Shown here in pieces: positions 1,061 through 37,729 of a DNA stretch of 37,729 nt. Under the pieces are notes generated by a model that saw only the letters and a program-made list of their open reading frames with translations, did no database searches and was not told the origin of the DNA. Source of the DNA: a virus; the IMG/VR virus record IMGVR_UViG_3300030339_000129, positions 1 through 37,729 of that record. One strand, given 5' to 3'. The translations under genes and the position numbers were made by a program. Position 1 is the stretch's first letter. Every line of letters begins with the position of its first letter.

Positions 1061-1651
1061 ATGACACTTGCCGATTTAGATATAAAAATCCTTCAATTAA
1101 TAAATCAGTATAGCATTAATGGCAGCATAACCCCTCTCTCAGATGGAACAGTAGAAGATTATACGCTGAGGACCAGAAACCTTATAGATGATTGCCAGAA
1201 GGAAATAGCCGGGATATATCCGGTAGTAAAAACCGCTGAATATTCTCAGGTAGCAGCTAACACAGGCGAAAGTTTTGTTTCTTATGCCTTGCCTGAGGAT
1301 TGCGACAAGGTTCTGAGCATGGAGGTACTTAACTTCCCGGACTTCAAACCTGCTCAGTACAAAGTATATGATGGCTTTTTCTATGTGAGCCCTTATCTTA
1401 ATGGAACCTTGATATTGACCTATACTAAGAAATTAGTTGAAATCAATTCAAGTACTCTATCAACTGCAACGCTGGAAATAGACACAGCATACCAGCCGCT
1501 TGTAGCTTATTATGTGGCAGGCCATGTTTACCTAGAAGATAATGCAACAATAGGCACTATGCTTATGAACGAATATGAGCAAAAACTCTCTAGGTCAAAG
1601 CCAAAGCCTATAGTTCAGCAAAGTACCGTAATTAATTCATGGGGATGGTGA
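1061..1651 (+). CDS. Head-tail connector / adaptor protein
   Basis: A 196-residue protein preceded by a strong AAAGGAGGTGG site. An N-terminal helical stretch (residues 1-50, with D/E at helix starts and a YTLRTRNLIDDCQ segment) is followed by a beta-rich middle and a helical C-terminus. This matches the podovirus adaptor family (gp6-like connectors) that sits between portal and tail nozzle. The neighbour supports this: a nozzle-like protein follows after 6 bp. The portal is at the far right end of the window, so head and tail genes would be adjacent only if the molecule is circular. Confidence 0.55.
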   Translation: MTLADLDIKILQLINQYSINGSITPLSDGTVEDYTLRTRNLIDDCQKEIAGIYPVVKTAEYSQVAANTGESFVSYALPEDCDKVLSMEVLNFPDFKPAQYKVYDGFFYVSPYLNGTLILTYTKKLVEINSSTLSTATLEIDTAYQPLVAYYVAGHVYLEDNATIGTMLMNEYEQKLSRSKPKPIVQQSTVINSWGW

Positions 1652-1657
1652 TAGCTT

Positions 1658-3520
1658 GTGTTTAATGTACCAGCTCCAAAGGCAAACCCGGATATAAGAC
1701 TAGGGGCAGATGGAAAGTACGCCATCGATGGAGGTATCAATCTATGGAGACAGGAGACTGCTCTCCCTATGAGCCAAGCGGCCAACATCCTGAATCTTAA
1801 TGCAGACGATAGAGGCACATTGCTAAAAAGGAAAGGTCAGGCCTACCTAGATACAACACTAGGTAGCGGAGGATGCAACGCTGTAGTGTTCAATAACAAA
1901 ATCATAAAAAAGTGGTCCACATTCCTATACAAGGAAAACCTAGATGGTAGCAGCCCGGTCCAGATATATAGTGGACTAGCCAGCGGCCCAGCCTTTATGT
2001 TTCCTTTTCAGGGCCTATTGTATATATTCGATGGAACTAATTACATTCAATGGGATGGTTCAACAGCAGCAGTAGTAGTGCCTTATATTCCTATAGTAAG
2101 TCAGGGAAGAAAACCGGATGGCACAACATCAACGCTTTATGAACCGCTGAATCTATTGACAGGAAGTTTCACAGATATGTTCAGCCCTAATGATGGAACA
2201 ACTTTAAACTTTGTTCTCAGCTTTACAAATCTTGATGCAGCAGCGGTTACAGCTATAGTCAATGGTGTGGCCAAGGCCGAGACAACAGACTTCACAGTAA
2301 ACAGGACAACAGGAGTATTAACATGGAACTCAGGAAAAGCCCCGGCAATAGGAACGAATACTGTTAAAATAACTGCAGCCAAAACAAATGCCTCAGACCA
2401 ATTACAGATTAAGAATTGTACTTATGCCGCAGAATTTGACAGCAGGCTTTTCATAACAGGAAATCCTAACTTCCCAAACAAGCTATGGAAAACAGGATTG
2501 ACTTCTAATCAGGCCGGAATACAGGCTAATTATTTTCCAGCAAGCGGATATAGCTCGTTCGATTCAGTAGGTTCAGTAGATACAAAGGTTACTGCATTTA
2601 TAAAGAAGTTTGAAAAATTTATCTACTTCAAGGAAAAATCCACGCACTTGACTTATGCTCAGACTGAATCAGATGGTTCAGATGGTTTTCCTATCACTAG
2701 CCTTAACGCTAACATAGGATGCGATATGCCGGGAAGTGTCCAGCTAATTGACAATATGCCTATATTCTTCAATTCAATTAACGGAGGATATGCGATACTA
2801 TCCACAACAGTTTTAGGCGAAAACATAGTGAAGAACTTCTCACATTGCATTAACGGAACAATCACAAGACCGGGCCTTCTCCAAGAAAGTTTGTCAGACC
2901 TACAAGGGTGTGCCTCATTCAATGATGGCAAGAAGTATTATCTATGTATGCCGACAAGTGGCAAGGTGTATGTATGGGATTATAGCATGGGCTATACTGT
3001 AAATAATCCAGAATCCTTCCATTGGTTCATATACGATAATATCCACGCAAGAAACTTCTTCATGGTTGGAAATGTTCTCTATTATTCATCCAGCGTTACA
3101 GGAGCTATAGTCAAATTCATAGATGCTCAGAATGATTTTGGTAATCCTATAAGCGGAGTATGGAAATCAAAACTTATGGATTTTGGTTTACCGGAATACT
3201 ATAAAAACATAACCGATTTATGGCTAACAACCAGAGCAAACTCAGGGAGCGTTATCACTATAAATCATTATGATGATAACGATACAATAATAAATAGCAC
3301 AATAATTCCTAGCAGCTTAACAAAATCCTTTGATTGGGATAGTTGGGATTGGGATAATTTTACATGGGATTATCAAAGGTTCGCTCCTACGCTTAGATTC
3401 AAGCCGGGTATTAAGAACATAAGATATTACCAGATAGAAATAACAAATAACGAATACAATGTAGATTTATCCATAGTTAGCTTAGTGCTTAAATGGGTTC
3501 CTACAAGAAAGGTAAGGTGA
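1658..3520 (+). CDS. Tail nozzle / stabilisation protein (P22 gp10-like)
   Basis: A 620-residue, beta-rich protein starting at GTG six bases after the previous stop. The order (short N-terminal arm, repeated blade-like strands, a variable insert around residues 165-250, and a C-terminal W-D rich stretch near 550-575) is typical of the podovirus tail-tube nozzle that docks under the adaptor. The aromatic WDSWDWDNFTWD segment has parallels in P22-like tail-tube proteins. No enzymatic motif is visible. It reads as one unit with the adaptor before it and the collar protein five bases downstream. Assignment is from fold-like pattern and gene order, so it is moderate. Confidence 0.5.
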   Translation: MFNVPAPKANPDIRLGADGKYAIDGGINLWRQETALPMSQAANILNLNADDRGTLLKRKGQAYLDTTLGSGGCNAVVFNNKIIKKWSTFLYKENLDGSSPVQIYSGLASGPAFMFPFQGLLYIFDGTNYIQWDGSTAAVVVPYIPIVSQGRKPDGTTSTLYEPLNLLTGSFTDMFSPNDGTTLNFVLSFTNLDAAAVTAIVNGVAKAETTDFTVNRTTGVLTWNSGKAPAIGTNTVKITAAKTNASDQLQIKNCTYAAEFDSRLFITGNPNFPNKLWKTGLTSNQAGIQANYFPASGYSSFDSVGSVDTKVTAFIKKFEKFIYFKEKSTHLTYAQTESDGSDGFPITSLNANIGCDMPGSVQLIDNMPIFFNSINGGYAILSTTVLGENIVKNFSHCINGTITRPGLLQESLSDLQGCASFNDGKKYYLCMPTSGKVYVWDYSMGYTVNNPESFHWFIYDNIHARNFFMVGNVLYYSSSVTGAIVKFIDAQNDFGNPISGVWKSKLMDFGLPEYYKNITDLWLTTRANSGSVITINHYDDNDTIINSTIIPSSLTKSFDWDSWDWDNFTWDYQRFAPTLRFKPGIKNIRYYQIEITNNEYNVDLSIVSLVLKWVPTRKVR

Positions 3521-3524
3521 TAAA

Positions 3525-4199
3525 ATGAGTTTTGTATGGTCTCCTACGGATGGATTAAACAATATTTCTCAGTTTCCAAGAACAGATGCAGGTATTAGAG
3601 CCCACTTGCAGGCTTTACTTCAGCAAATACCGGATTATTACGATGCTCTAGTGAATCCATTGACCGCATTTATGAACGCAGAGGTGGGTAAAATAGAGTT
3701 CTTCCCCGGCACAGTAGCTCCTTCTGGATATTTAGTGGCTCAGGGGCAACTAGTGTCCAGAACAACTTATGCAGCATTATGGGCCTACGCAAACGCCAGC
3801 GGTAATATCGTAACGGATGCAACATGGTTAGCTACAGGCCACGATGGACAATTTAGTTCTGGTGATTTATCAACAACATTCAGGCTCCCGGACCTAAGAG
3901 GAAACTTCGTAAGAGCATTCGATAATGCTAGGGGCGTGGATTCAGGCAGGACCATAGGAACAAATCAGGTAGATGGGTTTGGAGCTCACTCGCATAATGT
4001 CTATGGACTTCCAGAGGCAAACACAGCCAGCGGTTCAACTTCATACCACATCATGCAGAGGTATAGAGATGGATGGAATGGATTGACAAGAGGTGGAGCA
4101 TGGGATGGGGCAGCCGGAGAACAGACAGGCCTTATGAACTCAGGTATTTCAGAGACAAGACCAAAGAATATAGCGTTACTTGCTTGTATAAAATGCTAG
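3525..4199 (+). CDS. Phage tail collar domain protein
   Basis: A 224-residue protein with the classical tail-collar domain: VGKIEFFPGTVAPSGYL at about residue 54, then FRLPDLRGNFVRAFD near 122, a GAHSHNV segment and the C-terminal ETRPKNIALLACI. In this family the domain trimerises at the tip of short tail fibres. The N-terminal ~50 residues are helical and probably attach it to the tail. It lies four bases after the nozzle gene. Confidence 0.85.
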   Translation: MSFVWSPTDGLNNISQFPRTDAGIRAHLQALLQQIPDYYDALVNPLTAFMNAEVGKIEFFPGTVAPSGYLVAQGQLVSRTTYAALWAYANASGNIVTDATWLATGHDGQFSSGDLSTTFRLPDLRGNFVRAFDNARGVDSGRTIGTNQVDGFGAHSHNVYGLPEANTASGSTSYHIMQRYRDGWNGLTRGGAWDGAAGEQTGLMNSGISETRPKNIALLACIKC

Positions 4200-4210
4200 G
4201 AGGTGAATAG

Positions 4211-5149
4211 ATGAGCATATATGATGAACAGATAGCAGCAGAAAACAGCAGTTATGATAATATAGTAAATAACCTTAACAAATCAGTAGATATTACCAAA
4301 CAGCAATACGGTAATTCTCAGGCAGACTTGACTAATAAATACAATAATTTATACACCGGGCTAGACCAAGATACAACAAAAGCTCAAGATACAGCATATA
4401 CAGGCGACAATACAGTAGATACAACTGTAAATGAAAATCTGAATAGAGTTAATAACATAATGGCCAGAAATGGATGGTTAGGTGGTGGAGAGAACCTGCA
4501 GGCTCAACTCAATTCCAATAGTGATAGGATGAACGGTAGAGGTAGAGTTGGTGGAGAACTAAGCGGAACGCTACAGACCATCCTTAACAACAGGAATACA
4601 TACAAGGCCAATCAGACTTCTGAGGCCAACAAAATAAACACAGACCAGCAGAACGCTCTCAATACACTTAACGGACAATTAAGCTCAGCATTGGCCGACA
4701 AGTTATCGAGAATAAATTCCATTAAGGCAGCAGCACAACAGGCAGCAGCAGCGGCAGCTCAGGCGGCAGCATCAAGAGCGGCAGCATCCGCAAAATCAGC
4801 CAAAGCATCCGCAGATAAAGCTCCCACAAGTGCTCAACTATACAATGCCGGACTTGAAAGTTTGGCCGGAGCTATGGATTCAGGAGAAGGATATTTGTTC
4901 CTGAGAGACCAGAAGGGCAACCTCATAAACGATATGGGGCAAGTAAACTACAATAAACTGGTAAAATATTATCAGGACAATGCTTCAAACGGAGATTATG
5001 GAGCCTACACTACATCCGCTACGCTTGATAAATATAGCAGCAGTATTTTAGCTCATAACCAAGCGAACAAAGGAACTTATGTAGCAACGCCAGCAGTAAA
5101 GCCTACAACATTTACAAATACACCATTATTGGGTTCATTCTTTAAATAG
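4211..5149 (+). CDS. Probable internal virion / ejection protein
   Basis: A 312-residue, Asn/Gln/Ala-rich protein with a ribosome site overlapping the previous stop. It contains long predicted helices, an MARNGWLGGGENLQAQL segment around residue 84 and an alanine-rich stretch near 175-200. These properties and the place between collar protein and giant virion protein fit a podovirus internal core protein released with the DNA. No catalytic motif is seen. A scaffold-like or chaperone role is the alternative. Confidence 0.45.
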   Translation: MSIYDEQIAAENSSYDNIVNNLNKSVDITKQQYGNSQADLTNKYNNLYTGLDQDTTKAQDTAYTGDNTVDTTVNENLNRVNNIMARNGWLGGGENLQAQLNSNSDRMNGRGRVGGELSGTLQTILNNRNTYKANQTSEANKINTDQQNALNTLNGQLSSALADKLSRINSIKAAAQQAAAAAAQAAASRAAASAKSAKASADKAPTSAQLYNAGLESLAGAMDSGEGYLFLRDQKGNLINDMGQVNYNKLVKYYQDNASNGDYGAYTTSATLDKYSSSILAHNQANKGTYVATPAVKPTTFTNTPLLGSFFK

Positions 5150-5159
5150 GAGGGAATAA

Positions 5160-8100
5160 ATGGCTATAGATAAAAGCAAATATTCATGGGCTAATTGGGG
5201 AACATTAAGTAGCAAACCTAAATCAGGGGCAAGCTCAGCCCCTCTCACAACAAAGACCTATAAGAGTACATCGTGGGCTCAATGGAAACCTACAAAATCA
5301 AAGGGTGCTGCAATTCCTATACCAAGCGAAAAGGCACCATCGAGCATAACTTCATTACCACAACCGCTCCCTAAGATATTGCCTACACAGCAATCAAACT
5401 TAATCATAAGCAAATTGAATAGTGCTGATAAGATAGCTAAATACAAAGCCGCAAATCCTGCGGCTACTTCCCTTCCCAAGCTACCTACAGCTAAGATACC
5501 TGCAGCTAAATTGACACTCAATAGTGATAAGGCCCCTAGCTTGCCAAAACTTTCAAGTCTTAAAGTTCAGGCCCCGGCAACAAAGATGGAGCTCAACAAC
5601 TCGGACCAGTATAAAGCGGTAAGCAATGAAATTGAAGGGCTCAACAATGCCATTATAAATAATCCAATAAGGAAAGCCCTTGCTGATACAGCGGTTAATA
5701 AATTCATAATGAGGACCGCTCAGGAAGTAGACACCAACCTGAATAGAGCTGCAGGCGTTGACGATGCAGAGAATGAAACTAGCAAGCCGGATTTAGGGCC
5801 TATAGCTAATACTCTTGCAAACTTAATAGGATTCGGAATGACCATGAAAGGCAATTTTGCAGGAGTTACCGGACCTGTAAACAATATCGAAACCTCCCTT
5901 GCACCAGTAGGAAGAACAGCCGGAGCCGGAGCAGCTAAGTTATTAAGCAAATTTGAACCTGCTTTACCAGCCGCCAATACACTAGGAGCAAAAGCAGCGG
6001 TTACCGCATCGAAAGTCGCAAATTATGTTGTTCCAACCGTAGCTAAAGAAGCGGCAGAAGGAGCTCTATTCGGAGCATCCCTAGGAGTAGGAGCCAAGGA
6101 TGGTATAGTCAAGGAAACACTTAACGGAGCAGCTATGAACGCTGGATTCGGTCTAGGTTTAAAAGGCCTAGGAAGTGTAGCCAAAGGAATAACCCATTAC
6201 ATAAAGGGAGCAGATGGACTTGAAGTTCCTGTAACAGTAGTTAAAGATGATGGACACCATATTACATTTGTTGACCAGCAAGGCAACCACAGTCAGGTTC
6301 AAAAGTCAGTATTCGACAGAGTAGCAAAACCTGTATCGGTCCATGAAGGTATGAATACTCTAAATAGCAGAGTGGGAGATATGCCTCAGTATCAGGGAAC
6401 TTTCAAGAAGGAAACAGCACCATCAGAAGTTCCTGCAGCCGGACCTGTAAAACCAGTAGAGAATGTTGACTACACTAAAATGACAGATGAAGAATTGAGC
6501 AGCAATATGGATAGCGTAGGCAAAGAAATAGATGCTAACATTAACGATAAGAGCCCGGAAGTACAGACTAAGGTAATGGCACTAGCCGAACATTATGACA
6601 ACATGGCAAGGGAACAGGAAAATAGAGGTACTGCTAAAACTTCACCAGAGGGCTCAGGAGCCCCGGAAGTAGTTAAAGAGGAAAGTACACCACCTGCAAC
6701 AGAAACTCTTGCTACGGAGCAGCCAGCAAGGGAGAATCCGGCCTCGGCTCCAACAACCAGAAAAGACTTGCAGAAACACCTTGAATACCCGGACACCCAC
6801 GAACACAATGTCAATGATGATGCAATGTTTGTGGACCACCTCGACAGACCTAATTCAGGTAAAATTACAAAGGTAAATGCTGATGGTTCAATGGAGATTG
6901 AAACCCTAGAAGGAGATACATACAAGGTAAAGAAGGTAGGTAATACTCTTGAAAGCTATACTGAGGGAACACCTAAAGACCAGATTAAAATTGAGGACAG
7001 ACAGGATGCAGATAAAGCTGATTTAAAACTCAAAAAGGTTAAACCATATCAGGAATTGCACCCTGAATTGAAAAGTTATATCCAGCATGAGGCAGCAGTA
7101 TTACAGGCCGAATTGAAGGAAACCACAAGGGGAGAGCATTTTGTAGGTAAACTAGGACATGGAGAACTCAAAACTACAGGCCTCAAAAGAGTAACCAGCA
7201 GCTCTATAGCTAGACTCAGGGATGAATACGATATTAAATACCGAGACATTGAGATAGCCCTGAAAAATATAATAGAGGACCATGATTCAGAGAATACTCT
7301 TGTTGCCAAAAGGATAGAGGCTCTTATAGATGAGAGACTTAAAGGCGGCTATTCTGATATGTCCGGCCAGTATGAAACCCCTCCGAACAAAGAATATATC
7401 AAATTAATGGAACAGATAGATGCAGCAAAACCTGCAGAGACACCTGCGGTTAAGACTACCCCGGCTAAAGTTAAAACAAAAAAGGATGTAATTGCCGAAG
7501 GAGCAAAGGGGAAAGCTACAAAAACCAATCCTGCAAAATACCGCTACTACCTTGCAGAGAGACCGCCTTCACTAGGTACACATCCTAAAGGAACCGTTGA
7601 TATGAAAGGTTTTGACAACAAAACTGATGTTCCAGAGATAGGCGGCAAAGCGTGGGGATATGTAGAATATGACCATCCATTAACGGACAAGCAGGTATCA
7701 GACTATGAACTAAAGCCAGCTCCGGGAATAGACCTGCAGACCTTTGGCCATAAAGCAGAGACAAGCAAGAACCCATTCGATGAGCCTAGGTTCCATCCAT
7801 TCAAGCAGGCAGATGAGTTCGATGCACAATTTGACCGTAAAACAAAGTGGATAGAGGATACAATTAAGGACCAAGAGGCGGTTAAATTCTCTAAAGAAGG
7901 TAGCAACCAGTATTTAATCTTCCATCCTTCAACAAAAGGCAACAAATATCAGCTCACTATCTTTGATGATAAGGGAGCAATCATGGACAGCCAATCAAAT
8001 GATTTACAGGATGCAGTAGACTTCATTATGAGAGAGGGCTATGGCAAGACCGTAGATGAAAGTATTCCTAAAGGCCAGAGCGTAGACCTGCAGACATTCG

Positions 8101-11100
8101 GTAGACCTAAAGGCACTAAGGCAGAACCTCCAAAGGAAGAAATCAATGTAGGATTTAAACTTGAACTAAGAGAAAAAGGGGATAAAGCTACCAGCAAATT
8201 CTACTCTAACAGCCTTAAAAAATCAGAGTGGCTCCCAGAGGATGTAGACAGGCTAGTAAAAGAGGCAGACCATATTTACACTAAGCATACCAATGTTGGA
8301 GACCTAGAAAAAGCTGCATCAGTAATCCGCAACAATGGTATAAATGATGAAATTGACAGACTTCTTAAAAAGCCCTCCCTCGATGATTCAATAGACACCA
8401 CGGAACACTTCTTAATCACTAATGAATTAATGGCACAGGCTAAGGCCACAGGCAGGCCAGAGGACTACAACAAGGTAACCAGATGGCTACACTATACCAA
8501 CAGCAAAATAACAGGAGCAGCACAGGCCCTCCAAGCTGTATCAGTAGTAAAGAAGTCAACACCTGCAGGTATGCTAACAGCCGCAGAGAAGGGAATATCC
8601 AAGGCAGTTGAAAAGATAGAGGCTAAAAACCCTAAGCTCAAAAAACAGGTAGATGATAAAGCAACCGAAGTTAAAAAGGCCATGGATGATATTAACAAAG
8701 AGGCCTCAGATACAGTCGGTAAAGACATAACGGACAACATAGACCAGATACTAGAGAAGGGCAGAGCAGAGGTAGAGGCTAAGAGGAAAGCAGCGGCAGC
8801 AAAGAAAAACGCTGCAGGCAAGAAGGTAGTCAAGCCAGCTCCGGGAAAAGAAGAACCTATAGTGCCACTCACAGAGGCACAAAAGAGAGCCAATGCAGCA
8901 GAAGTTTTGGCCCGGAAGGTAGACAATGCAACAAAGCCTAAAACCCCTAAAGAAATGGATGTTGAGGCCGAAATGGTCAAGACACTATTCAGGGTAGCAA
9001 AGAAGAACCTTCCTGAAACCGAAAAGATACCGCAGGACCCCCTTCAATTTGTAGCTATGGCCATAAAGGGCCGGGATAAATACAAGGATGTATGGAGAAA
9101 AGCACAGAACATCCTGCAGGAGGCGTACAGAAATGAGCCTGAGAAGTTAGAAATCCTGCAAAAATACCTTGACGATAACCTGAAACCTACATTTGAAAAA
9201 GACAAAATGGAAAAGGTAATCTCAAAGAAGTTAAAAGATATGGGAGTGAACCTAGGCCAGATAGTTAAAGAGCATTATACAGTCAACAAGCAGATGAAGG
9301 TAGAAATAAAGGAAAGACTTATCAGAGAGGCCGGGTTATCAGGAGAAGATGCCAACATCCTAGGAAACTACATTGCCAAGAGGATGAAGGAATTGACCAA
9401 TGATAAGAAAATGAAGGTCCTAGAACGATTAATGGCCGACAAGGAAACCGTAAAGGGAACACCAAAGAGCCCGGTAAAATCAATTCAGGAACTTTCAAAC
9501 CTAGGAGCCTTTAATAATACCAACTATACAGGCAAAATCGTTGGTAAAGTCAGTCCTTTAGTAGACAAAATAATAAAATCCAAGCTGGATATAGGCAAAA
9601 TGGTAAAATCTTTGTCAATGGATAAGCAGGAGCTAACTAAGGTTAAAGTTTTGAACCATATTTTAGAGCAGACAAACCTTGCAAGAAGTGATGCAGAAAA
9701 ATTAGCACAGATAGTGCTTGACAGGTTCGACGAACTCTCCGGGATAGCAAGAGAAAAGGCAGTAGGTTCTAAGCTAGACAAGATTAAATTCGTAGGTCCT
9801 AAGCCTAAAGTAGTTGCTAATCCAGTTAAATCAATCCAAGAGTTATCAAATCTAGGAGCCTTTAACAACAAAAACTACCTTGCAGAGGCTAGATACCAGC
9901 TAGGGATTGAATCAGGCAAGATGATAGCAGAAAAAATTGACCTAGGCAAGATGGTTCGCCTCCTATCACAAGAGGACCAGAACTTGACCAGAGAACGAAT
10001 CATTAACTACATCCTCCAAAAGACAGACCTTAATGTAAAGGATGCCTCAATACTATCTAAGGTAGTAAAGGAACGGTTCGATGAACTAGCAGGCAACAAG
10101 AAGGAAACCATATTAAAGGGTATATTTGAACCTAAGAAACCTGCAAAGCAAACCAGCATGATTGAAAAGATAGTTGAACTTTCACATTTGGGAGCATTTG
10201 ACCATGCAGATTATAAAGGCCTTATATCTGATAAATACGGAATACCTTCACTAACAGCGGATGATGCAAAATTCATAGCAAAGACAATGGAACGAGCCCA
10301 AGCCATGCCGGAAGGTAGAGCAAGGGATATTGAAGTGGCAAGAGCAGTAATGTTTATTGCAAACAAGTTGCCTAAGACTATGGAGGATAAAATCAAGAGC
10401 CTGCAGAGAATATCCATGTTGCTGAACCCTAAGACGATGCTGAGAAATGTATTCGGTAATGTGTTCATGGGTACTGCTGAAACCATAAAGGATGTTCCGG
10501 GAGCGTTAGTTGATAAGGCAATCAGTAAATATGGTGTACCGGGGATGCTAAAGCCAACAAGGGAGAGGACCACGCTAGAACCTTCACTTAATTCTTTAGC
10601 AACATCCGGCAAGGCCATTAAACAAGGCTTTAAAAATGTAACAGAAGATAGAAAACTAGGGATTGACACTTCTCCGGGCAGAGGTCAGTATGAAATTCCA
10701 ATGGGTAAAGTTTTCAATGAGGACAAGGTAGGCGGCAAGCTATTAAATAAGTTGGACAGTATGACTAAGTATGGCCTGCAGTATGGTGATTCGCCATTTT
10801 ATAATGCAGCATACAAGGAATACCTGAGACAACAGATGAAGATAGCTAAGGTAACCCATCCGACAGATGCTATGATTAAAAAAGCCCACGCAATAGCCGA
10901 GGAAAGGACCTTCCAGAACATAACAGAAATATCAAAAGGTTTTGAGGGCCTAAGAAAGTCAATGAATAGAATAGGTTCTAAAGTTGCAGGAAATGAAAAT
11001 TTTGGTCTAGGAAATATAGTTGTTCCATTTATCAAGACACCAGCCAACATTCTTGACAAGGCCATTGACTATTCGCCAGTATCAGCAATAAAGGCCATTA

Positions 11101-12221
11101 ATATGCTCAGGACAGCCAAGAACACCGGAACATTTGACCAGAAACACTTCTGCGACACCGTAGGCCGAGGCGTTACAGGTACAGCGGCCATATTGCTAGG
11201 CTATCATTTAGCTAGTAAAGGATGGTTAGTGGGCCACGCAGATACCAATACGAATGTAGCGGCTCTCGATAAATCAACAGGGAAAAGCCCTTATTCGTTC
11301 CATGTGGGAGATATGTACTACACATTTGACTGGGCTCAGCCAATGTCATTACCGTTTGCAATCGGAGCGGATGTATTTCAGAACGGACACACCAAGCAGC
11401 AGGCCATGAATATAGTTGTTCAGGCGGTCCAATCAGGCGGCCAGACATTATTAAACCAGACTGTCTTTGCAGGAATAACTAAGTTTATGAGCGGCTATGA
11501 CCTATCAAGCAATATAGCAAGCACAGTAGCAGGATTCCCTACACAGTTTGCTCCAACCTTCCTGAAACAGATAGCTCAATTAACGGACACAACTCAGAGA
11601 AGTAGCTATGAGGACAATGTAGGAGCATCAACGCTTAATACAATCAAGGCGAAACTTCCGGGATTAAGTAGAACGCTAGAGCCAAAGGTAGACACTCTAG
11701 GAAAAGAAGTAAAGTTGTTCCAAGGCAGCACGAACCCGGTAACTAACTTTATAAACACATTCCTAAATCCGGGAACCTTCACTGCAGCTCAGACTAATCA
11801 AGCAGTAGACCTTGTAAAGAACATTTACGAAAAAACAGGCGAGACTAAGCAATTTCCAAAGGTAGCAGCTAAATATTTCGATAATACTGATGGAGAGAGA
11901 ATAAATCTAACAGCAAAGGAATATACTGCATACCAGAAGTACCTAGGTCAACACACTATGGATTATATAAGCACATTAAGTGATTCAGGCCTCAGCAGCG
12001 AAGATGATTACCTGAAACTAGCAAACAAAATCAGCAATGAGATAACTAAAATCAACAAGGATGCTAAGGATGAAATCTTATCAAGCAGAGGGCTAGACAC
12101 AAGCAAGACCGCTCTAAAGAAAACAACAACCAGCAGTAGCAGCAGCACCAACAGCCGCACTACTACACACAAAGATAGAGTTCTAATTGATGGTGCCAGC
12201 AGGAGAACAACGAGGAATTAA
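5160..12221 (+). CDS. Giant polyvalent virion / ejection protein (2353 aa)
   Basis: The largest gene in the window. Residues 1-150 are low-complexity (Lys/Ser/Pro/Thr). Hydrophobic, glycine-rich segments lie near 215-240, 295-340 and 1995-2020 (ILLGYHLASKGWLVG) and could cross or perturb membranes. A Lys/Glu/Ala-rich helical central region follows. From about 1360 to 1700 there are at least three related modules; the phrase QELSNLGAFNN recurs at about 1440 and 1557 and in weaker form near 1672, each followed or preceded by LGKMV... and RFDELxG units of ~115 residues. SMLLNPKTMLRNVFGNVF near 1755 is typical of phage large polyvalent proteins. The context, last in the tail block, suggests a T7 gp16-like ejection protein. 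No protease, transglycosylase or ART motif could be confirmed by eye. Confidence 0.6.
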   Translation: MAIDKSKYSWANWGTLSSKPKSGASSAPLTTKTYKSTSWAQWKPTKSKGAAIPIPSEKAPSSITSLPQPLPKILPTQQSNLIISKLNSADKIAKYKAANPAATSLPKLPTAKIPAAKLTLNSDKAPSLPKLSSLKVQAPATKMELNNSDQYKAVSNEIEGLNNAIINNPIRKALADTAVNKFIMRTAQEVDTNLNRAAGVDDAENETSKPDLGPIANTLANLIGFGMTMKGNFAGVTGPVNNIETSLAPVGRTAGAGAAKLLSKFEPALPAANTLGAKAAVTASKVANYVVPTVAKEAAEGALFGASLGVGAKDGIVKETLNGAAMNAGFGLGLKGLGSVAKGITHYIKGADGLEVPVTVVKDDGHHITFVDQQGNHSQVQKSVFDRVAKPVSVHEGMNTLNSRVGDMPQYQGTFKKETAPSEVPAAGPVKPVENVDYTKMTDEELSSNMDSVGKEIDANINDKSPEVQTKVMALAEHYDNMAREQENRGTAKTSPEGSGAPEVVKEESTPPATETLATEQPARENPASAPTTRKDLQKHLEYPDTHEHNVNDDAMFVDHLDRPNSGKITKVNADGSMEIETLEGDTYKVKKVGNTLESYTEGTPKDQIKIEDRQDADKADLKLKKVKPYQELHPELKSYIQHEAAVLQAELKETTRGEHFVGKLGHGELKTTGLKRVTSSSIARLRDEYDIKYRDIEIALKNIIEDHDSENTLVAKRIEALIDERLKGGYSDMSGQYETPPNKEYIKLMEQIDAAKPAETPAVKTTPAKVKTKKDVIAEGAKGKATKTNPAKYRYYLAERPPSLGTHPKGTVDMKGFDNKTDVPEIGGKAWGYVEYDHPLTDKQVSDYELKPAPGIDLQTFGHKAETSKNPFDEPRFHPFKQADEFDAQFDRKTKWIEDTIKDQEAVKFSKEGSNQYLIFHPSTKGNKYQLTIFDDKGAIMDSQSNDLQDAVDFIMREGYGKTVDESIPKGQSVDLQTFGRPKGTKAEPPKEEINVGFKLELREKGDKATSKFYSNSLKKSEWLPEDVDRLVKEADHIYTKHTNVGDLEKAASVIRNNGINDEIDRLLKKPSLDDSIDTTEHFLITNELMAQAKATGRPEDYNKVTRWLHYTNSKITGAAQALQAVSVVKKSTPAGMLTAAEKGISKAVEKIEAKNPKLKKQVDDKATEVKKAMDDINKEASDTVGKDITDNIDQILEKGRAEVEAKRKAAAAKKNAAGKKVVKPAPGKEEPIVPLTEAQKRANAAEVLARKVDNATKPKTPKEMDVEAEMVKTLFRVAKKNLPETEKIPQDPLQFVAMAIKGRDKYKDVWRKAQNILQEAYRNEPEKLEILQKYLDDNLKPTFEKDKMEKVISKKLKDMGVNLGQIVKEHYTVNKQMKVEIKERLIREAGLSGEDANILGNYIAKRMKELTNDKKMKVLERLMADKETVKGTPKSPVKSIQELSNLGAFNNTNYTGKIVGKVSPLVDKIIKSKLDIGKMVKSLSMDKQELTKVKVLNHILEQTNLARSDAEKLAQIVLDRFDELSGIAREKAVGSKLDKIKFVGPKPKVVANPVKSIQELSNLGAFNNKNYLAEARYQLGIESGKMIAEKIDLGKMVRLLSQEDQNLTRERIINYILQKTDLNVKDASILSKVVKERFDELAGNKKETILKGIFEPKKPAKQTSMIEKIVELSHLGAFDHADYKGLISDKYGIPSLTADDAKFIAKTMERAQAMPEGRARDIEVARAVMFIANKLPKTMEDKIKSLQRISMLLNPKTMLRNVFGNVFMGTAETIKDVPGALVDKAISKYGVPGMLKPTRERTTLEPSLNSLATSGKAIKQGFKNVTEDRKLGIDTSPGRGQYEIPMGKVFNEDKVGGKLLNKLDSMTKYGLQYGDSPFYNAAYKEYLRQQMKIAKVTHPTDAMIKKAHAIAEERTFQNITEISKGFEGLRKSMNRIGSKVAGNENFGLGNIVVPFIKTPANILDKAIDYSPVSAIKAINMLRTAKNTGTFDQKHFCDTVGRGVTGTAAILLGYHLASKGWLVGHADTNTNVAALDKSTGKSPYSFHVGDMYYTFDWAQPMSLPFAIGADVFQNGHTKQQAMNIVVQAVQSGGQTLLNQTVFAGITKFMSGYDLSSNIASTVAGFPTQFAPTFLKQIAQLTDTTQRSSYEDNVGASTLNTIKAKLPGLSRTLEPKVDTLGKEVKLFQGSTNPVTNFINTFLNPGTFTAAQTNQAVDLVKNIYEKTGETKQFPKVAAKYFDNTDGERINLTAKEYTAYQKYLGQHTMDYISTLSDSGLSSEDDYLKLANKISNEITKINKDAKDEILSSRGLDTSKTALKKTTTSSSSSTNSRTTTHKDRVLIDGASRRTTRN

Positions 12222-12756: not shown

Positions 12757-13482
12757 TTGATTGACGAACATATTGTATGTCTAAATCCATCCAAACAGGG
12801 TTCAAACATAGGCGTGGATGATTACGGAACAGAGAAGGACAACGCCCACATCATAGGCTATCGTGTCAAAGATATTCTGGACTGGAACGGTGGCTTTAAA
12901 AAAGCATATTGCACGCCTAAGACAATGACATTATCCGAAGGTATCAAATTCAGCAACGATGTTAAAGCTACAATCCATGTAGATATACATAGTAACGCAT
13001 GGATGTATAAAAACAGAGGATGCCAAGCTTGCTACAAGTCGGCAAAGGGCAAGGTCCTCGCAAAGTGCATATATGATGAAGTTGCATCCGTTACACCAAC
13101 AGCAGATGAAGGACTTAAATACAGAGATGATTTAGGAGCCCTTAATCAGACAAATGCAACAGCCGCATTGGTCGAAATGTTCTATCACGACAACTATGAC
13201 GATGTGGAATTTTACAAAAACCACAAAGAGGAATTTGCAAGAGCAATAGCTGCAGGCATTATGAAATACGCTGGGGTTCCAGAGAGACAGGAAACAGTAT
13301 ATAAAACTGTAACAGCTACGCAACTTAATGTTAGGGACACACCATCAGCAGCAAGCCCTGATACTATTATTGGCCATTTAAACAATGGAGATAAAGTTCA
13401 TGTTGGTTTTGAAAAGAACGGATGGGCCAACATATTCTTTGGTAACAATGGTGGCTGGGTATCATCAGCATACTTAAAATAA
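12757..13482 (+). CDS. Endolysin: N-acetylmuramoyl-L-alanine amidase (Amidase_3) with C-terminal SH3 domain
   Basis: A 241-residue lysin with a TTG start and an AAAGGAG site eight bases upstream. Residues ~5-170 are an Amidase_3 domain, a zinc enzyme that cuts the bond between muramic acid and L-alanine. Visible ligands or catalytic residues are Glu26 (GTEKD), His78 (DIHSN) and Glu140 (ALVEMFYH). The usual first histidine of the GHGG motif appears as PSKQG, so one zinc ligand is atypical, as in some clostridial phage lysins. Residues ~184-241 are a bacterial SH3 cell-wall-binding domain (LNVRDTPS ... GWVSSAYLK). There is no signal peptide, so export depends on a holin; the LLH holin gene overlaps its stop. 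Confidence 0.85.
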   Translation: MIDEHIVCLNPSKQGSNIGVDDYGTEKDNAHIIGYRVKDILDWNGGFKKAYCTPKTMTLSEGIKFSNDVKATIHVDIHSNAWMYKNRGCQACYKSAKGKVLAKCIYDEVASVTPTADEGLKYRDDLGALNQTNATAALVEMFYHDNYDDVEFYKNHKEEFARAIAAGIMKYAGVPERQETVYKTVTATQLNVRDTPSAASPDTIIGHLNNGDKVHVGFEKNGWANIFFGNNGGWVSSAYLK

Positions 13483-18665: not shown

Positions 18666-20444
18666 ATGGAAAAGCAATTATTAGATTCTAAAACATTAGT
18701 GGAGGATTATTTATTCAATAAAGATTGGAGGACAAAAGAAAATTCAAACGCACCTAGAAGTTTTGGCTCGCTCAATAAATATATAATTGGAGAAGTTAGT
18801 AAAAACTATTGGTTGAATGAAGTATACAATAAAGAAATAAAATGTGCATATCTTAATGGTGATTTTCACATCCATGATTTAGGGGCATTAACATTATACT
18901 GCGTTGGATATTCATTAGAAAACATACTATTAATGGGGGTACAAGGTATAAGTAATATACCAGTATCAAGTCCACCTAAACATTTCAAAAGTGCTTTATC
19001 ACAAGTTGTAAATTTGGCAACAGTATACCAAAATGAACAAGCTGGAGCAGTAGCATTCAATTCCGTAGATACGTTATTAGCACCTTTTATACGAGAAGAT
19101 GATTTGGATAAAATCCAAGTTAAACAAGAATTACAGAATTTTATATTTGCCTTAAATAGCAATTCAAGAATGGGGGCAGAACCAGCATTTACAAATATAA
19201 CATTAGATATAACTCCTTCACCAGATATGTTGCGTAAAAATATAATCATAGGTGGAGATTATAGATTGGATGTATATGGTGATTTTCAAAAGGAAATGGA
19301 TTTATTTAATGAATGTTTTGCTGAAATAATGCTAGAAGGAGATAGTAAGGGTCAGCCATTTTCATATCCAGTATTGACTTATAATATAGGAAAGAGATTT
19401 GATTGGAATAATCCTAAAAATGATAAAATATTTGAAATGGCTGGTAAGTTTGGATATCCATATTTTTCAAATTTTATAAATTCTGAAATGGATGAATCTG
19501 ATATAAGAAGTATGTGCTGTAGACTTAGATTAGATTTAACCGAGTTAAGAAGAAGAAATGGTGGATTATTTGGAGCAGGAGATTCAACTGGTTCAATTGG
19601 TGTAGTGACTCTAAATATGCCTAGAATAGGTTATATATCATCAAATGAGATTGAATTTTTTAATAAACTAGATATTATATTGAATTTAGCAAAAGATTCA
19701 TTAGAACTCAAACGAGTATTCTTGCAAAATGAAGTATTGGATGGTGGATTAATTCCAGCTTATTCTCAATATGTTGGAACGATTGATAATCATTTTAGCA
19801 CTATTGGTATAATTGGGTTTAATGAAATGTGTGAAAACTTTTTAGGAAAAGACATACTATCAATAGAAGGTAAAGAGTTCTCCGTAAAAGTTGGTGAATA
19901 TATCTTAAATAAAATAAAAGAATTTCAAGTAGAAACTGGTCATCTATATAATTATGAAGCATCACCTAGCGAATCAACTTGTTATAGACTGGCTAAAAAA
20001 GATAAAGAGTTATTTCCCGATATAATAACACAAGGTAATTCAGTTCCATACTACACTAATTCTTCTCATATACCAGTATCCAAAGTAACTACTATCAATG
20101 ATATGATGGCACATCAAGAAGCTTTACAAGTTCAATTTACTGGAGGATGTGTAAATCATATATATTTAGATGGAGCAATATCTGGTGAACAAGCTAAACA
20201 TATGGTTAAAACTTGTTTAACAAATTATAGAAATCCATATATAAGCCTTTCTCCAGTAAATAGATATTGTCCAGAACATGGTTATATTGAAGAACGAGTT
20301 GAAAATTGTCCTAAGTGTGGTATGAAGTTGGATATTATGCAACGCGTAACTGGTTATTTAAGGAAAGTTGAAAATTTCAATGATGGTAAAAAAGAAGAAT
20401 TTTATGATAGAAAACAATTTAATGGTATAATTGATTTAAAATAA
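18666..20444 (+). CDS. nrdD: Anaerobic (class III) ribonucleotide reductase, NrdD2-like
   Basis: A 592-residue glycyl-radical enzyme that makes deoxynucleotides without oxygen. Visible residues: Cys79 (LYCVGY), Met283-Cys284-Cys285 (SMCCRL), a zinc site C535-PEH ... C548-PKC551, and the radical glycine Gly563 in RVTGYLR. It lacks the N-terminal ATP-cone seen in Escherichia coli NrdD. The methionine with tandem cysteines is the described mark of the NrdD2 subgroup, which uses a redoxin rather than formate; the adjacent glutaredoxin fits this. The NrdG activase follows after a short gap. The gene is more AT-rich than most others here, suggesting separate acquisition. Confidence 0.92.
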   Translation: MEKQLLDSKTLVEDYLFNKDWRTKENSNAPRSFGSLNKYIIGEVSKNYWLNEVYNKEIKCAYLNGDFHIHDLGALTLYCVGYSLENILLMGVQGISNIPVSSPPKHFKSALSQVVNLATVYQNEQAGAVAFNSVDTLLAPFIREDDLDKIQVKQELQNFIFALNSNSRMGAEPAFTNITLDITPSPDMLRKNIIIGGDYRLDVYGDFQKEMDLFNECFAEIMLEGDSKGQPFSYPVLTYNIGKRFDWNNPKNDKIFEMAGKFGYPYFSNFINSEMDESDIRSMCCRLRLDLTELRRRNGGLFGAGDSTGSIGVVTLNMPRIGYISSNEIEFFNKLDIILNLAKDSLELKRVFLQNEVLDGGLIPAYSQYVGTIDNHFSTIGIIGFNEMCENFLGKDILSIEGKEFSVKVGEYILNKIKEFQVETGHLYNYEASPSESTCYRLAKKDKELFPDIITQGNSVPYYTNSSHIPVSKVTTINDMMAHQEALQVQFTGGCVNHIYLDGAISGEQAKHMVKTCLTNYRNPYISLSPVNRYCPEHGYIEERVENCPKCGMKLDIMQRVTGYLRKVENFNDGKKEEFYDRKQFNGIIDLK

Positions 20445-20447
20445 AGA

Positions 20448-20476
20448 TTGACAATGTATAAGTGACATAAATAATA
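20448..20476 (+). promoter_or_regulatory. Possible secondary promoter before nrdG
   Basis: TTGACA (20448-20453), 17 bp, ATAATA. The -10 is poor, so this may only add to read-through from the upstream nrd promoter. Confidence 0.4.
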
Positions 20477-20500
20477 ATAGAAGGTGGAGGTATACAACAA

Positions 20501-21058
20501 ATGGTTAGATATAAATATATAGAACATGAACGCAGTGAAGATGCTAATTTTATTGGAGCATTGATAGTAGCATCTGATTGCAAAATAAAATGTAGAGGAT
20601 GTTTTAACCGTGACATCAAAAAGATGGAAACGAAGAAGGATACTGCACAGAATATCATCAAGGAGGTGCTTTCTAATCCATTCAACGAGGGTATTATACT
20701 AGCTGGCTTGGAGTGGTCTAGCACACCTACAGACCTCGTAGAACTGGTCACAGAAGCCGATAAACATGGTCTGAAGATAATGATATACACAGGATTAGAT
20801 TTGGGTGAGTTTGAAATGAGGATAGGCAAGGCTTGTTGCGATAAGGTTGGAATTAAAGAACTTCCAAAAGATTACAATGATACTTCAATGATGTATGCTT
20901 GTATTGGTGGGATGGTTCTTGATAATGCAATCCATAGTGATTATTATATAAAATCTGGAGCATATGTAAAGGAACTGGAAGTAACTGGTAGAGAAGCATT
21001 TGGTGTGACATTGGCAACAAGTAATCAGAATGTTATAAAAATTCAGAAAGAGGTGTAG
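20501..21058 (+). CDS. nrdG: Anaerobic ribonucleotide reductase activase (radical SAM)
   Basis: A 185-residue radical SAM protein with the cluster motif C27-x3-C31-x2-C34 (DCKIKCRGCFN). It also has the IILAGLEWSS segment that replaces the usual GGEP turn, and KIMIYTGL near residue 90. NrdG uses S-adenosylmethionine and a [4Fe-4S] cluster to make the glycyl radical on NrdD. Ribosome site GGTGGAGG. It is followed after one base by the dUTPase gene. Confidence 0.9.
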   Translation: MVRYKYIEHERSEDANFIGALIVASDCKIKCRGCFNRDIKKMETKKDTAQNIIKEVLSNPFNEGIILAGLEWSSTPTDLVELVTEADKHGLKIMIYTGLDLGEFEMRIGKACCDKVGIKELPKDYNDTSMMYACIGGMVLDNAIHSDYYIKSGAYVKELEVTGREAFGVTLATSNQNVIKIQKEV

Positions 21059-21059
21059 T

Positions 21060-21560
21060 ATGGAGAGGGAGATATGTTTCGCAAAAATGAGAGTGGATGC
21101 AATCATTCCTAGTAAGAATCTGGAAAATGCTGGGTATGATGTGTATGCCAACTTTCCAGAGGAATATATAGTTATAGAGCCACATGAAACCAAGATGATA
21201 CCAACAGGAATTGCTAGTGTCCTTCCAGATAGCCTAGTGTTCGTTCTAAAGGAGCGAGGGTCTACTGGTACTAATGGTATGGGACAGAGGGCAGGAGTCA
21301 TTGATAGTGGCTATAGAGGTGAATGGTTTGTACCTATCACCAATCACAATGATGTTCCACTGGTAATCTATAAATGTATAGAATTGTTGGACTCAGACTT
21401 ATTTCCAATAGATACCATATTCTATTCTTATAAGAAAGCAGTCTGCCAAGCAATATTGGTGGATGTTCCAGTTGTAAGAATCAAACAAATTCACAAAGAC
21501 CAGCTTTCAAATTATGTGTCCGAGCGAGGTTCGGGGTCATGTGGTTCGTCTGGTAAATAA
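21060..21560 (+). CDS. dut: dUTP diphosphatase (trimeric Dut family)
   Basis: A 166-residue protein with the five dUTPase motifs in order: NAGYDVYA (I), ERGSTG (II), GVIDSGYRGEWFVPITN (III, catalytic Asp), KAVCQAIL (IV) and a relaxed C-terminal glycine/serine arm SERGSGSCGSSGK (V). It hydrolyses dUTP to dUMP, keeping uracil out of DNA and feeding dTMP synthesis. It completes the dNTP cassette. The arm has a cysteine where the family normally has phenylalanine, an unusual detail. Confidence 0.9.
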   Translation: MEREICFAKMRVDAIIPSKNLENAGYDVYANFPEEYIVIEPHETKMIPTGIASVLPDSLVFVLKERGSTGTNGMGQRAGVIDSGYRGEWFVPITNHNDVPLVIYKCIELLDSDLFPIDTIFYSYKKAVCQAILVDVPVVRIKQIHKDQLSNYVSERGSGSCGSSGK

Positions 21561-22055: not shown

Positions 22056-22688
22056 ATGAAAGCATCAATTAGACCAATGATAGAAAACCTAGAGTTATTA
22101 TTTGTAGTACTTAATGAAGAATACTTTAATGGTGAATTGGAAAAACCAGTTATAACAATCGCACCAGACACTACTAAAGGTGCTTATGGATGGCTGACTA
22201 ATTGGAGGGCATGGCAAGAAGAAGGTACAGAAGGTTACTATGAAATCAACTTGTGTGCAGAACATACTGCAAGAGGTTACAAAGCATTAGCTGAAACATT
22301 ATTACACGAACTAGTTCATCTGTACAATCTCCAGAAGGGTATAAAGGACTGTTCAAGAGGTGGCACTTACCATAACAGGAAATTCAAAATCATGGCTGAA
22401 ACAAAGGGACTCATGGTAGAGCAGAGCCAGAAAAACGGATGGGCATACACACAGTTGAACCCAGAAACCAACAGATTCCTTGACACTGTAACAGGAATAG
22501 ATTTTGTACTATTCAGAAGCAAAGTTGAAAGTTCATCTTCAACAAAGAAGTCAAGTAGTAGAAAATACGTATGTACACAATGTGGTCAGTCAATCAGAGC
22601 CACTAAAGAAATCAAAATACTTTGTGGTGAGTGTTCAACAGAAGATGATTTATGGATGATGATATGCGAAGAAAGTGATGAAGATTAA
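22056..22688 (+). CDS. SprT-like zinc metallopeptidase
   Basis: A 210-residue SprT-like family protein. The zinc-protease motif HELVHLYN has ligands His84 and His88 and catalytic Glu85; a further His in YHNRKF is the expected third ligand. A C-terminal zinc ribbon (CTQCGQ ... CGEC) follows. Relatives such as Spartan cut proteins crosslinked to DNA, so a repair or DNA-clearing role is plausible, but phage members are not characterised as far as I know. It has its own promoter and an ACGGAGG ribosome site; a linker stem-loop follows its stop. Confidence 0.8.
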   Translation: MKASIRPMIENLELLFVVLNEEYFNGELEKPVITIAPDTTKGAYGWLTNWRAWQEEGTEGYYEINLCAEHTARGYKALAETLLHELVHLYNLQKGIKDCSRGGTYHNRKFKIMAETKGLMVEQSQKNGWAYTQLNPETNRFLDTVTGIDFVLFRSKVESSSSTKKSSSRKYVCTQCGQSIRATKEIKILCGECSTEDDLWMMICEESDED

Positions 22689-29225: not shown

Positions 29226-29381
29226 ATGAATAATGAATATATTTTAAAATGTGATAGAATTTGTGCCGAAAATTCAATAACTTTAAGTGGTTGTAAAGGT
29301 TGTCCGAACTACGCAAACAAAAAAATAAGTTGTAGTGAAATAATGAATTTAGCTAGAAAAATTAAAAGGGGTGTAAAATAA
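29226..29381 (+). CDS. Small cysteine-containing protein (51 aa)
   Basis: ATG 29226 is chosen for its TAGGAGG site; the frame is open upstream through the hairpin. Four cysteines flank CKGC, suggesting a metal site. The stop overlaps the start of the GP88-like gene (TAATG), so the pair is coupled and may act together. Confidence 0.6.
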   Translation: MNNEYILKCDRICAENSITLSGCKGCPNYANKKISCSEIMNLARKIKRGVK

Positions 29382-30013
29382 TGAAAATATCTAAAGGCAA
29401 TTCAAAACTTGGCAAAATAGCAAATTTTAACATTACTCCATTGAGAACTTGTTCCCCAGAAGCTTGTAATACATGTGGTAAAAATGGTTGCTATGCTTTG
29501 AAGGCTTATAGGCAATATCCAGCAGTTAGGACAGCATGGGACGAAAATACCGAACTAGCAATAAATGACATTCCTACATTATATCAGGATTTAAGAAAAT
29601 ACTTTACTACATTTAAGGGAAAAATATTCCGTATCCATTCAGCAGGTGATTTTGTATCAATTGACTATTTAAAAATGTGGGCTGATATAGCGTTTGAATT
29701 TAAAAATATCAACTTTATGGCGTATACAAAACAATTTAAAATATTGCAATATTTTATAGATATCTATGGTCGCAATTACATGACACGTAACTTTAAAATA
29801 ATACTTTCTTCGTGGACTGGATTAGATATACCTTCAGAACTCTCTTACAAGTTCTCTATTGCATGGTTATGTGAAGACGGACAGAACGCCCCTGTTATGG
29901 TATATAATCTTAAAAAGGCTGGTAGAAGTGTTAGGATATGTGGAGGGGATTGCACTGTTTGCAAGTACTGTTATGAACCAACTGGATTAGATGTTATATT
30001 CATAAAGCATTAA
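29381..30013 (+). CDS. GP88-family phage protein
   Basis: A 210-residue protein that matches the phage Gene Product 88 family: GNSKLGKIANFNITPLRTC, CNTCGKNGCYALKAY, PAVRTAWDEN, the RIHSAGDF segment and a C-terminal cysteine cluster (C ... CTVCKYC). The family is widespread in phages and its biochemical role is unknown to me; the many conserved cysteines suggest an iron-sulfur or zinc site, and a radical-SAM-like nature has been considered. Here it is coupled to a small cysteine protein and led by a hairpin leader. Confidence 0.7.
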   Translation: MKISKGNSKLGKIANFNITPLRTCSPEACNTCGKNGCYALKAYRQYPAVRTAWDENTELAINDIPTLYQDLRKYFTTFKGKIFRIHSAGDFVSIDYLKMWADIAFEFKNINFMAYTKQFKILQYFIDIYGRNYMTRNFKIILSSWTGLDIPSELSYKFSIAWLCEDGQNAPVMVYNLKKAGRSVRICGGDCTVCKYCYEPTGLDVIFIKH

Positions 30014-37104: not shown

Positions 37105-37729
37105 ATGGAAAGACAAGATGATTTTAAAACAATATTAGAGATGCACAATGCTAATATTGGAAGATTAAATAGCAAACAATTGGAAAATATTGTTCGTGAA
37201 CAGTACAAAGTTTACGGTTGTTTTTGGAACAAAGGCTCAAGCCCAACATTGACAAGAATGCAGGACGCAAGGGGAGCAGTGGCAAACGCAGGAGTTGATG
37301 CAGTAAAAGCCTACAACGAATTTGATTTAACGCCGTTGTTTAAAGACTTTACGGAGGTTACTGACAGCTACGGCAATGTGTTTGTAAGAATCCCTAAGAT
37401 GTATATTAAAAAGGTTGATGCAAGTGGCTACAAATCAAGACAGATAAGCAGAACGCCATTTACAGGAGCATATCTGCCAGAATGCTTTAAAAACCAAGCA
37501 ACAGGCTTAGAACTTGATTATATTGATGTGGGTAAATATGTAGCCACTACCACGGACGGTACAAAGCTTGAATCAAAAGCTGGCGCATATCCCCTGATAA
37601 ACAAAAATATAGTACAGTTCAGGGATATGGCAAAAGCTAATAATATTGGCGCGATAAAAGGTTATCAGATAATGGACATCCATGTTATGGATTTATTGCA
37701 GACATTGTTTTTGATAGAGTTTGCAACGA
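37105..37729 (+). CDS. Tail fibre N-terminal part (C-type-lectin fibre), runs off the window
   Basis: Open to the end of the window: 208 residues. The first ~35 residues are phage-specific. The rest follows the conserved core of DGR-target-like lectin fibres: VFVRIPKMYIK, LPECFKNQ, GAYPLINKNIVQFRDMAKANN, GYQIMDIHVMDLLQTLF. It ends at LIEFAT, just before the family's usual middle segment. The left end of the window resumes at a later point of the same family pattern, so ~70-90 residues would be missing if both are one gene. Base composition becomes more GC-rich after ~37200, unlike the AT-rich genes before it. Confidence 0.75.
   Translation, partial: MERQDDFKTILEMHNANIGRLNSKQLENIVREQYKVYGCFWNKGSSPTLTRMQDARGAVANAGVDAVKAYNEFDLTPLFKDFTEVTDSYGNVFVRIPKMYIKKVDASGYKSRQISRTPFTGAYLPECFKNQATGLELDYIDVGKYVATTTDGTKLESKAGAYPLINKNIVQFRDMAKANNIGAIKGYQIMDIHVMDLLQTLFLIEFAT

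Follow-up and report, generated by a model that had tools for sequence, protein, structure and literature searches.

The locus raises a two-part question: what is the 2353-residue protein encoded at 5160–12221, and what is the repeated sequence in its middle? The window, meaning the whole stretch of DNA analysed here, is an entire IMG/VR-type virus record of 37,729 bases. The gene, as a sequence-only reading had claimed, is real: a single reading frame that starts with ATG and stays open over 2353 codons. Near-identical pieces of it are held by two other IMG/VR contigs, L002 and L003, so the gene is not an accident of assembly. Comparison of the window with L002 over 11,660 bases gave 14 differences. 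Eight of the 14 fall within the 248 bases at 8680–8927 (residues 1174–1256, early in the insertion described below) and three of these eight change a residue; the stretch is a local recombination tract or a fast-changing spot.

We consider it probable that this giant serves a short-tailed phage as its large internal virion (ejection) protein, that it belongs to the P-SSP7 gp16/ProddE class, and that it carries polyvalent cargo and a helical spacer insertion. Its last ~620 residues are the conserved ejection domain, recognised by homology of both sequence and fold. The ~1700 residues before that domain would be variable payload and spacer, comprising the DarA_C domain, the region of residues 625–747, and the helical insertion of three units. 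The earlier reading missed both DarA_C and the C-terminal domain. Its low-complexity start is borne out by composition (Table 1); its "several hydrophobic segments" were overstated, as the best 19-residue Kyte-Doolittle mean is 0.94 and the giant has no canonical membrane helix. This does not exclude membrane insertion, since T7 gp16 is a soluble monomer on purification despite two predicted membrane regions, according to the available text of PMC8954989. The giant as a whole has no match in NCBIfam.

Table 1. Features of the giant gene and its neighbours in the window.
Feature	Coordinates	Strand	Residues	Remarks
SU10_adaptor head-tail adaptor	1061..1651	+		E 1.3e-8
620-aa structural/tail protein	1658..3520	+		by homology
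312-aa Q/N/A-rich protein	4211..5149	+		just upstream of the giant; no family match at E ≤ 0.01
Whole gene	5160..12221	+	2353 aa	probable giant gp16-type internal virion (ejection) protein
S/K/A/P-rich low-complexity start	5160..5609	+	1-150	entropy 3.54 vs mean 3.91
Unnamed domain	7032..7400	+	625-747	44% identity to L102/L103; no named family
DarA_C (PF18789)	7536..7724	+	793-855	E 9.1e-21, 74.6 bits vs cut-off 27
Conserved anchor 1 (AAQALQA...TPAGML)	8517..8576	+	1120-1139	
Insertion with repeats	8598..10250	+	about 1147-1697	from alignment, left edge approximate; absent in 10 relatives with both anchors
Helical "preamble"	8898..9245	+	1247-1362	one copy here and in L098, two in L102/L103
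Repeat unit 1	9246..9554	+	1363-1465	
Repeat unit 2	9585..9908	+	1476-1583	
Repeat unit 3	9936..10244	+	1593-1695	
Conserved C-terminal ejection-protein domain	10251..12095	+	1698-2312	
phrog_6651 (internal virion protein) match	11022..11492	+	1955-2111	E 2.7e-7; E 7e-9 in the scan of A7 members
Endolysin, Amidase_3 + SH3_3	12757..13482	+		

The class assignment is carried by the C-terminal domain. A tblastn search of 50,697 phage records with the whole protein found seven, five of them in this domain, including the ProddE "internal virion protein D". We aligned the window protein with that of ProddE and with a Bordetella phage plasmid protein (alignment A4) and searched IMG/VR, which gave at least 457 confirmed relatives, the best 80 of which were used. 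These 80 ORFs reduce to 74 when those with identical first 300 residues are dropped; 17 are truncated 5' and 4 are truncated 3'. Three of the best 80, of 1048–1117 aa, match residues 1698–2312 or slightly more at 42–43% identity. The Bordetella piece used as a tblastn query reached 64 records, many of them annotated as internal virion protein (P-SSP7, Syn5, P60, pelagiphages) and others as hypothetical. The Bordetella bronchiseptica plasmid pA reads as a phage genome, and its homologue (L013:7950-10927) is spread over two overlapping ORFs, whose matches to the family profile follow one another.

That profile was made from a family alignment, A7, 61 of whose 70 members, the window included, are matched by phrog_6651. 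Within the TPAN motif at residues 1960–1963, the T, P and N are invariant in 70 aligned sequences. At a nominal database size of 100,000, the A7 profile finds P-SSP7 gp16 with E 2e-68 (residues 575–1153) and ProddE protein D with E 1.5e-124 (residues 644–1192). Neither protein is a row of A7, and P-SSP7 is the cleaner test because ProddE was one of the three A4 rows by which the A7 loci were found. Of the 127 further sequences included as background, 13 were reversed, and none of these 13 came up; the background sequences that did are two longer readings of the Bordetella ORFs, both truly related, one ORF of Caulobacter phage S2B, and one sequence at E 90. The S2B ORF (L011:5143-6162) lies just upstream of that phage's homologue and matches profile positions 154–263 at E 9e-5, as a second partial copy or by chance.

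T7 gp16, on which most work in this functional class has been done, goes undetected: its hhalign probability against the A7 profile is 0.3, and it is absent from the hmmsearch --max matches at E ≤ 100. We therefore claim class membership with P-SSP7 and ProddE only, limit the likeness to T7 gp16 to role and position, and rest the functional transfer on members of the P-SSP7/ProddE type. P-SSP7 gp16 in turn owes its annotation to "synteny and size".

The AlphaFold2 model of the C-terminal domain, built with 70 sequences, has a mean pLDDT of 90.6 and a pTM of 0.87. It matches 48 entries of BFVD, a set of predicted viral structures, at E ≤ 0.001, including internal virion proteins (by name) of pelagiphages and cyanophages and polyvalent ART/LPD proteins. 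Foldseek found no solved structure in the PDB at E ≤ 0.001, and sequence comparison of the domain with the PDB gave nothing convincing. The best VIA-align score, Z 5.8, went to an unrelated carrier; the ejection protein gp72 of phage DEV (Z 5.4, rmsd 2.9 over 76 residues) ties with unrelated helical chains and was not used. A confidently predicted fold for which no solved relative was found makes this domain a good target for structure determination.

The N-terminal part has one named domain, the anti-restriction-related DarA_C. The same site is matched by phrog_23451, of unknown function (E 6.7e-15), and the region aligns with residues 400–491 of the P1 DarA chain 9ukm_I (E 0.0027). A tblastn search of plasmids places the DarA_C region in a Mycoplasmatota plasmid, where the match reaches residue 965, and in plasmids of Lactobacillus crispatus and Subdoligranulum. 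None of the 80 homologous ORFs has it (best E 0.71). The N-terminal DarA domain, of which Pfam includes a model, has no match in the giant by profile or by comparison with P1 DarA. On these sequence comparisons the giant is classed as carrying the C-terminal DarA domain only, and not as a DarA.

Residues 625–747 have no blastp match among the 80 other ORFs at E ≤ 1e-3 and are shared, together with the repeat unit and the C-terminal domain, by L102 and L103. Named cargo in the family was surveyed with Pfam in 28 long relatives: L103 and, from the 74 distinct ORFs, the 27 of greatest length. ART-PolyVal occurs in two of them, and DUF7831, ddrB-ParB, FtsK_gamma, RadC, LPD3 and LPD23 in one each. 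Since L030 alone holds three of these domains and L023 two, at most five of the 28 carry any named domain. Judged by these Pfam matches, "polyvalent" is a minority signature, with no named cargo in most members. DarA_C, together with ART-PolyVal, ddrB-ParB, RadC, LPD3 and LPD23 in a few relatives, nonetheless supports the term as the sequence-only reading had applied it, and the named domains in relatives fit the polyvalent-protein theme as set out in the accessible part of PMC5512222. That reading had seen no enzymatic part, and we likewise found no lytic transglycosylase, peptidase or other enzyme with Pfam, either in the whole protein at E ≤ 1 or in slices at E ≤ 10 (residues 800–829 lay outside the slices). 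A literature search combining polyvalent or DarA proteins with internal virion or ejection proteins, mostly covering titles and the starts of abstracts, returned no title describing such an architecture.

The repeat was proposed as three diverged helical modules. Its best two copies, segments 1436–1556 and 1553–1672, align with a score of 233, whereas 500 shuffles never exceeded 59 (Z 31); the repeat is real. The motif SIQELSNLGAFNN is found twice (residues 1441 and 1558) and ELSHLGAFDH once (residue 1673); IGKMV lies at 1478 and LGKMV at 1595, and RFDEL at 1522 and 1639. Phasing that starts from the motif yields two complete copies only, flanked by a helical half (about 1361–1436) and a motif-only half (about 1668–1692), and as a framing of three copies it was rejected. 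Re-phasing the unit as the helical half DLGKMV…RFDEL, a linker and ELSNLGAF gives three full tandem units, so that the count stands and the framing does not. This unit fits all three copies in the window and that in L098; the unit profile was built from these same four sequences, and their own scores against it are circular. The preamble and unit 1 are predicted to be all-helical, with modest confidence (pLDDT 70.5, pTM 0.55).

Searches with the module region stayed below the curated cut-offs of both Pfam and NCBIfam, and neither the PHROG comparison nor that with solved folds gave a convincing match. Profile searches of slices, which had been suggested as a check, returned for the modules weak matches to PF18325 (about residues 1642–1716; E 0.001, 19.9 bits, below the cut-off of 30.6) and the winged-helix family PF15977 in unit 2 (about residues 1493–1512; E 0.093, below the curated cut-off), neither of which was used. 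A phrog_29169 match at about residues 1649–1692 (E 0.0062) is weak, near chance, and was likewise set aside. The model of the preamble and unit 1 matches nothing in the PDB by Foldseek at E ≤ 0.001, and the best VIA-align score for the module model, Z 6.0, is to an unrelated structure. The modules match no phage record at E ≤ 5, and single-protein queries of viral contigs returned only near-identical contigs. None was found in genome contigs, a weak negative given the few exact peptide patterns used (six, one). The string KSIQELSNLG in an ORF of L017 that we read as terminase-like was treated as chance, as that contig had been preselected by the search pattern. A literature text search for the repeat motif found no paper. 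Within the limits of these searches, an inserted repeat of varying copy number appears to be undescribed.

The units lie in an insertion of ~550 residues. We examined 17 proteins for two anchors, a conserved helix GQAxQA…TPEGML and the sequence LLNPKT or a variant of it; both were found in 12, and the pattern missed an anchor in the other five. In 10 of the 12 the second anchor follows 84–119 residues after the first, as compared with 626 in the window and 549 in L103. L060, among the five with a missed anchor, has 215 residues between the anchors and lacks the unit. Other extra sequence thus also occurs at the insertion point, which is not constant among other members. At E ≤ 0.01 the unit is absent from all 80 homologous ORFs, the best being L025 (0.049) and L064 (0.074).

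Unit-bearing relatives are a small sample of three distinct proteins. The 1235-aa protein of L098/L101 (IMG/VR 3300033067_002195), found by a motif pattern scan, has one unit with its preamble. It aligns with residues 1236–1510 of the window protein (29% identity, E 5.7e-25) and again with residues 1574–1718 (E 4.5e-13), and on this alignment it is independent support for the re-phased unit. Its C-terminus is different and goes unmatched by A7 up to an E of 1000. L103 and L104 have identical unit-bearing proteins; these and that of L102 have one full unit and a diverged half repeat of preamble and helix of about 200 residues. The copy number is therefore one in L098/L101, one plus a diverged half in L102/L103, and three in the window.

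We read the repeats as probably a length-variable helical spacer. It is somewhat unlikely that they are instead a near-neutral tandem duplication at a tolerant site, without any selected role. The extra sequence in L060, the absence of the unit from the 80 homologous ORFs and the range of copy number from one to three agree with such an expansion, but the ELSxLGA core is kept in the three window units and in all three distinct relatives (as GAF, but GAL in L102/L103) at an overall identity of 24–30%, which implies constraint. An array that binds or condenses DNA, in the head and during ejection, is unlikely. The helical repeats are basic (38 K+R against 23 D+E over residues 1401–1600), unit 2 has the weak winged-helix match, and gp16-type C-terminal domains bind DNA, as stated in the available part of PMC8954989; against this, no DNA-binding family exceeds its curated cut-off, no PHROG or fold is convincing, and the 80 ejection homologues examined do without the units.

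The sequence-only reading had suggested a new scaffold for membrane or DNA translocation, formed by the modules in their own right. The modules are an insertion without a convincing family or fold match, and they directly precede the ejection domain. The translocation role is nevertheless improbable: the domain of translocation type is at the C-terminus and occurs without modules in the 80 ORFs; the eight 19-residue stretches of the giant with the highest hydrophobicity all lie outside the units; and the one-unit protein of L098/L101 has a C-terminus that A7 does not match.

The gene order around the giant is adaptor, 620-aa tail-type protein, collar-domain protein, 312-aa protein, giant, 116-aa protein, endolysin. 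From its position, the 312-aa protein may be a second ejection protein. L020 has a homologue of the 620-aa protein upstream of its ejection protein and an endolysin homologue downstream. The ProddE homologue comes after tail tubular protein B and internal virion proteins B and C, that of ctgrD200 after a putative internal virion protein, and that of CRP-113 after tail tubular proteins and unnamed genes. The virion role predicted by the earlier reading is well supported, by the homology of residues 1698–2312, by the confident predicted fold and by a position between tail genes and endolysin.

The portal matches mostly phages of Gram-positive bacteria (e.g. Streptococcus, Staphylococcus), so that it is the adaptor and ejection genes that carry the podovirus assignment. 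TerL gives a mixed list (Microbacterium, Streptococcus and Lactococcus, but also Bacteroides, Xanthomonas and Yersinia); its best match is Eggerthella phage EL753P1, which is also among the best portal matches. The endolysin matches gut contigs and Vibrio phages. According to the accessible text of PMC8954989, ejection genes are a common feature where podophages infect Gram-negative bacteria but are not found in the phi29-like group; a Gram-positive host, if there is one here, would therefore be notable. We give little credence to a further possibility, in which the unit is a copy-number-variable spacer cassette of phage-injected proteins whose copies set the reach of gp16-type proteins through the envelope and which, in this phage with its portal like those of Gram-positive phages, adapts the machine to a different, thicker wall. 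It is very improbable that the giant is the tape measure of a long-tailed phage. Its size and helical content, the portal matches (many of the Streptococcus, Staphylococcus and other Gram-positive phages among them are long-tailed) and the best TerL match might suggest one; against it stand the C-terminal match to internal virion proteins, the SU10-type adaptor and the lack of any named tail tube, sheath or tail-assembly chaperone in the 25 window ORFs scanned of the 102 listed.

Several features of the remaining window were recorded. An anaerobic ribonucleotide reductase large subunit (NrdD, 592 aa) is followed by an activase-like Fer4_12 protein and a dUTPase-like protein (18666–21560), a cluster suggestive of an anaerobic host. 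In the non-structural region, at 22056–22688 and 29381–30013, lie proteins of the SprT-like and GP88 families. Positions 1–357 encode the end, and 37105–37728 the beginning, of two very similar tail-type proteins, probably two paralogues; comparison with the L002 gene at 2531–3907 gave 95.9% DNA identity over 556 bases. A quick look found in the window no diversity-generating template copy of the 3' end of the 1–357 gene, and no exact direct terminal repeat of 10–199 bases was found. The window is without a stretch that in L002 encodes a 319-aa protein, read as a putative major capsid protein.

In the mechanism that we propose for an ejection protein of this kind, the giant would be packaged in the head near the portal and would exit, unfolded, ahead of or with the DNA. 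Its C-terminal domain would refold at the inner membrane into a hub that aids DNA entry, as has been modelled for gp16-type proteins (PMC8954989, in the part available). DarA_C and other N-terminal parts would enter as early anti-host cargo, and the tripled helical units would form a spacer, weakly basic and adjustable in length, that separates the cargo from the ejection hub; these units may have arisen by tandem duplication of one that is present once in a relative. The class of the giant is known and the repeat cassette looks novel. Little is understood about podovirus ejection proteins, which are seldom recognised except in model phages, and this case joins three elements that usually appear in separate descriptions: a gp16-type ejection domain, polyvalent anti-host cargo, and a length-variable repeat cassette whose insertion is at one conserved point. 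If the cassette is a spacer, relatives with zero, one and three units make the relation between ejection-protein length and envelope crossing testable.

Among the closest known systems, gp16 of Escherichia phage T7 has an analogous position and proposed role, but it has no detectable sequence homology to the giant, in which no transglycosylase domain was found. Phage P1 DarA has the DarA_C domain alone in common with the giant, the match covering only DarA 400–491; this lies within the C-terminal region, 383–639, that was not resolved by cryo-EM (PMC12810830, in the part available). The L098/L101 protein has one unit and preamble as in the giant, and differs in its C-terminal part. The polyvalent proteins of Iyer et al. 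2017, as described in the available text of PMC5512222, are likewise very large late-gene products with conflict-type domains; the giant adjoins late/virion genes, as that class does, with DarA_C as its one named domain where L030 and L023 have several. There remain the internal virion protein D/gp16-like proteins of P-SSP7, Desulfovibrio phage ProddE, pelagiphages and roseophages (phrog_6651). DarA_C and the repeat unit set the giant apart from the 80 IMG/VR relatives examined, and it is about 1000 residues longer than proteins of the phrog_6651 class; it shares with them a C-terminal domain of ~550 residues and a location in the late/tail gene cluster, beside the tail genes.
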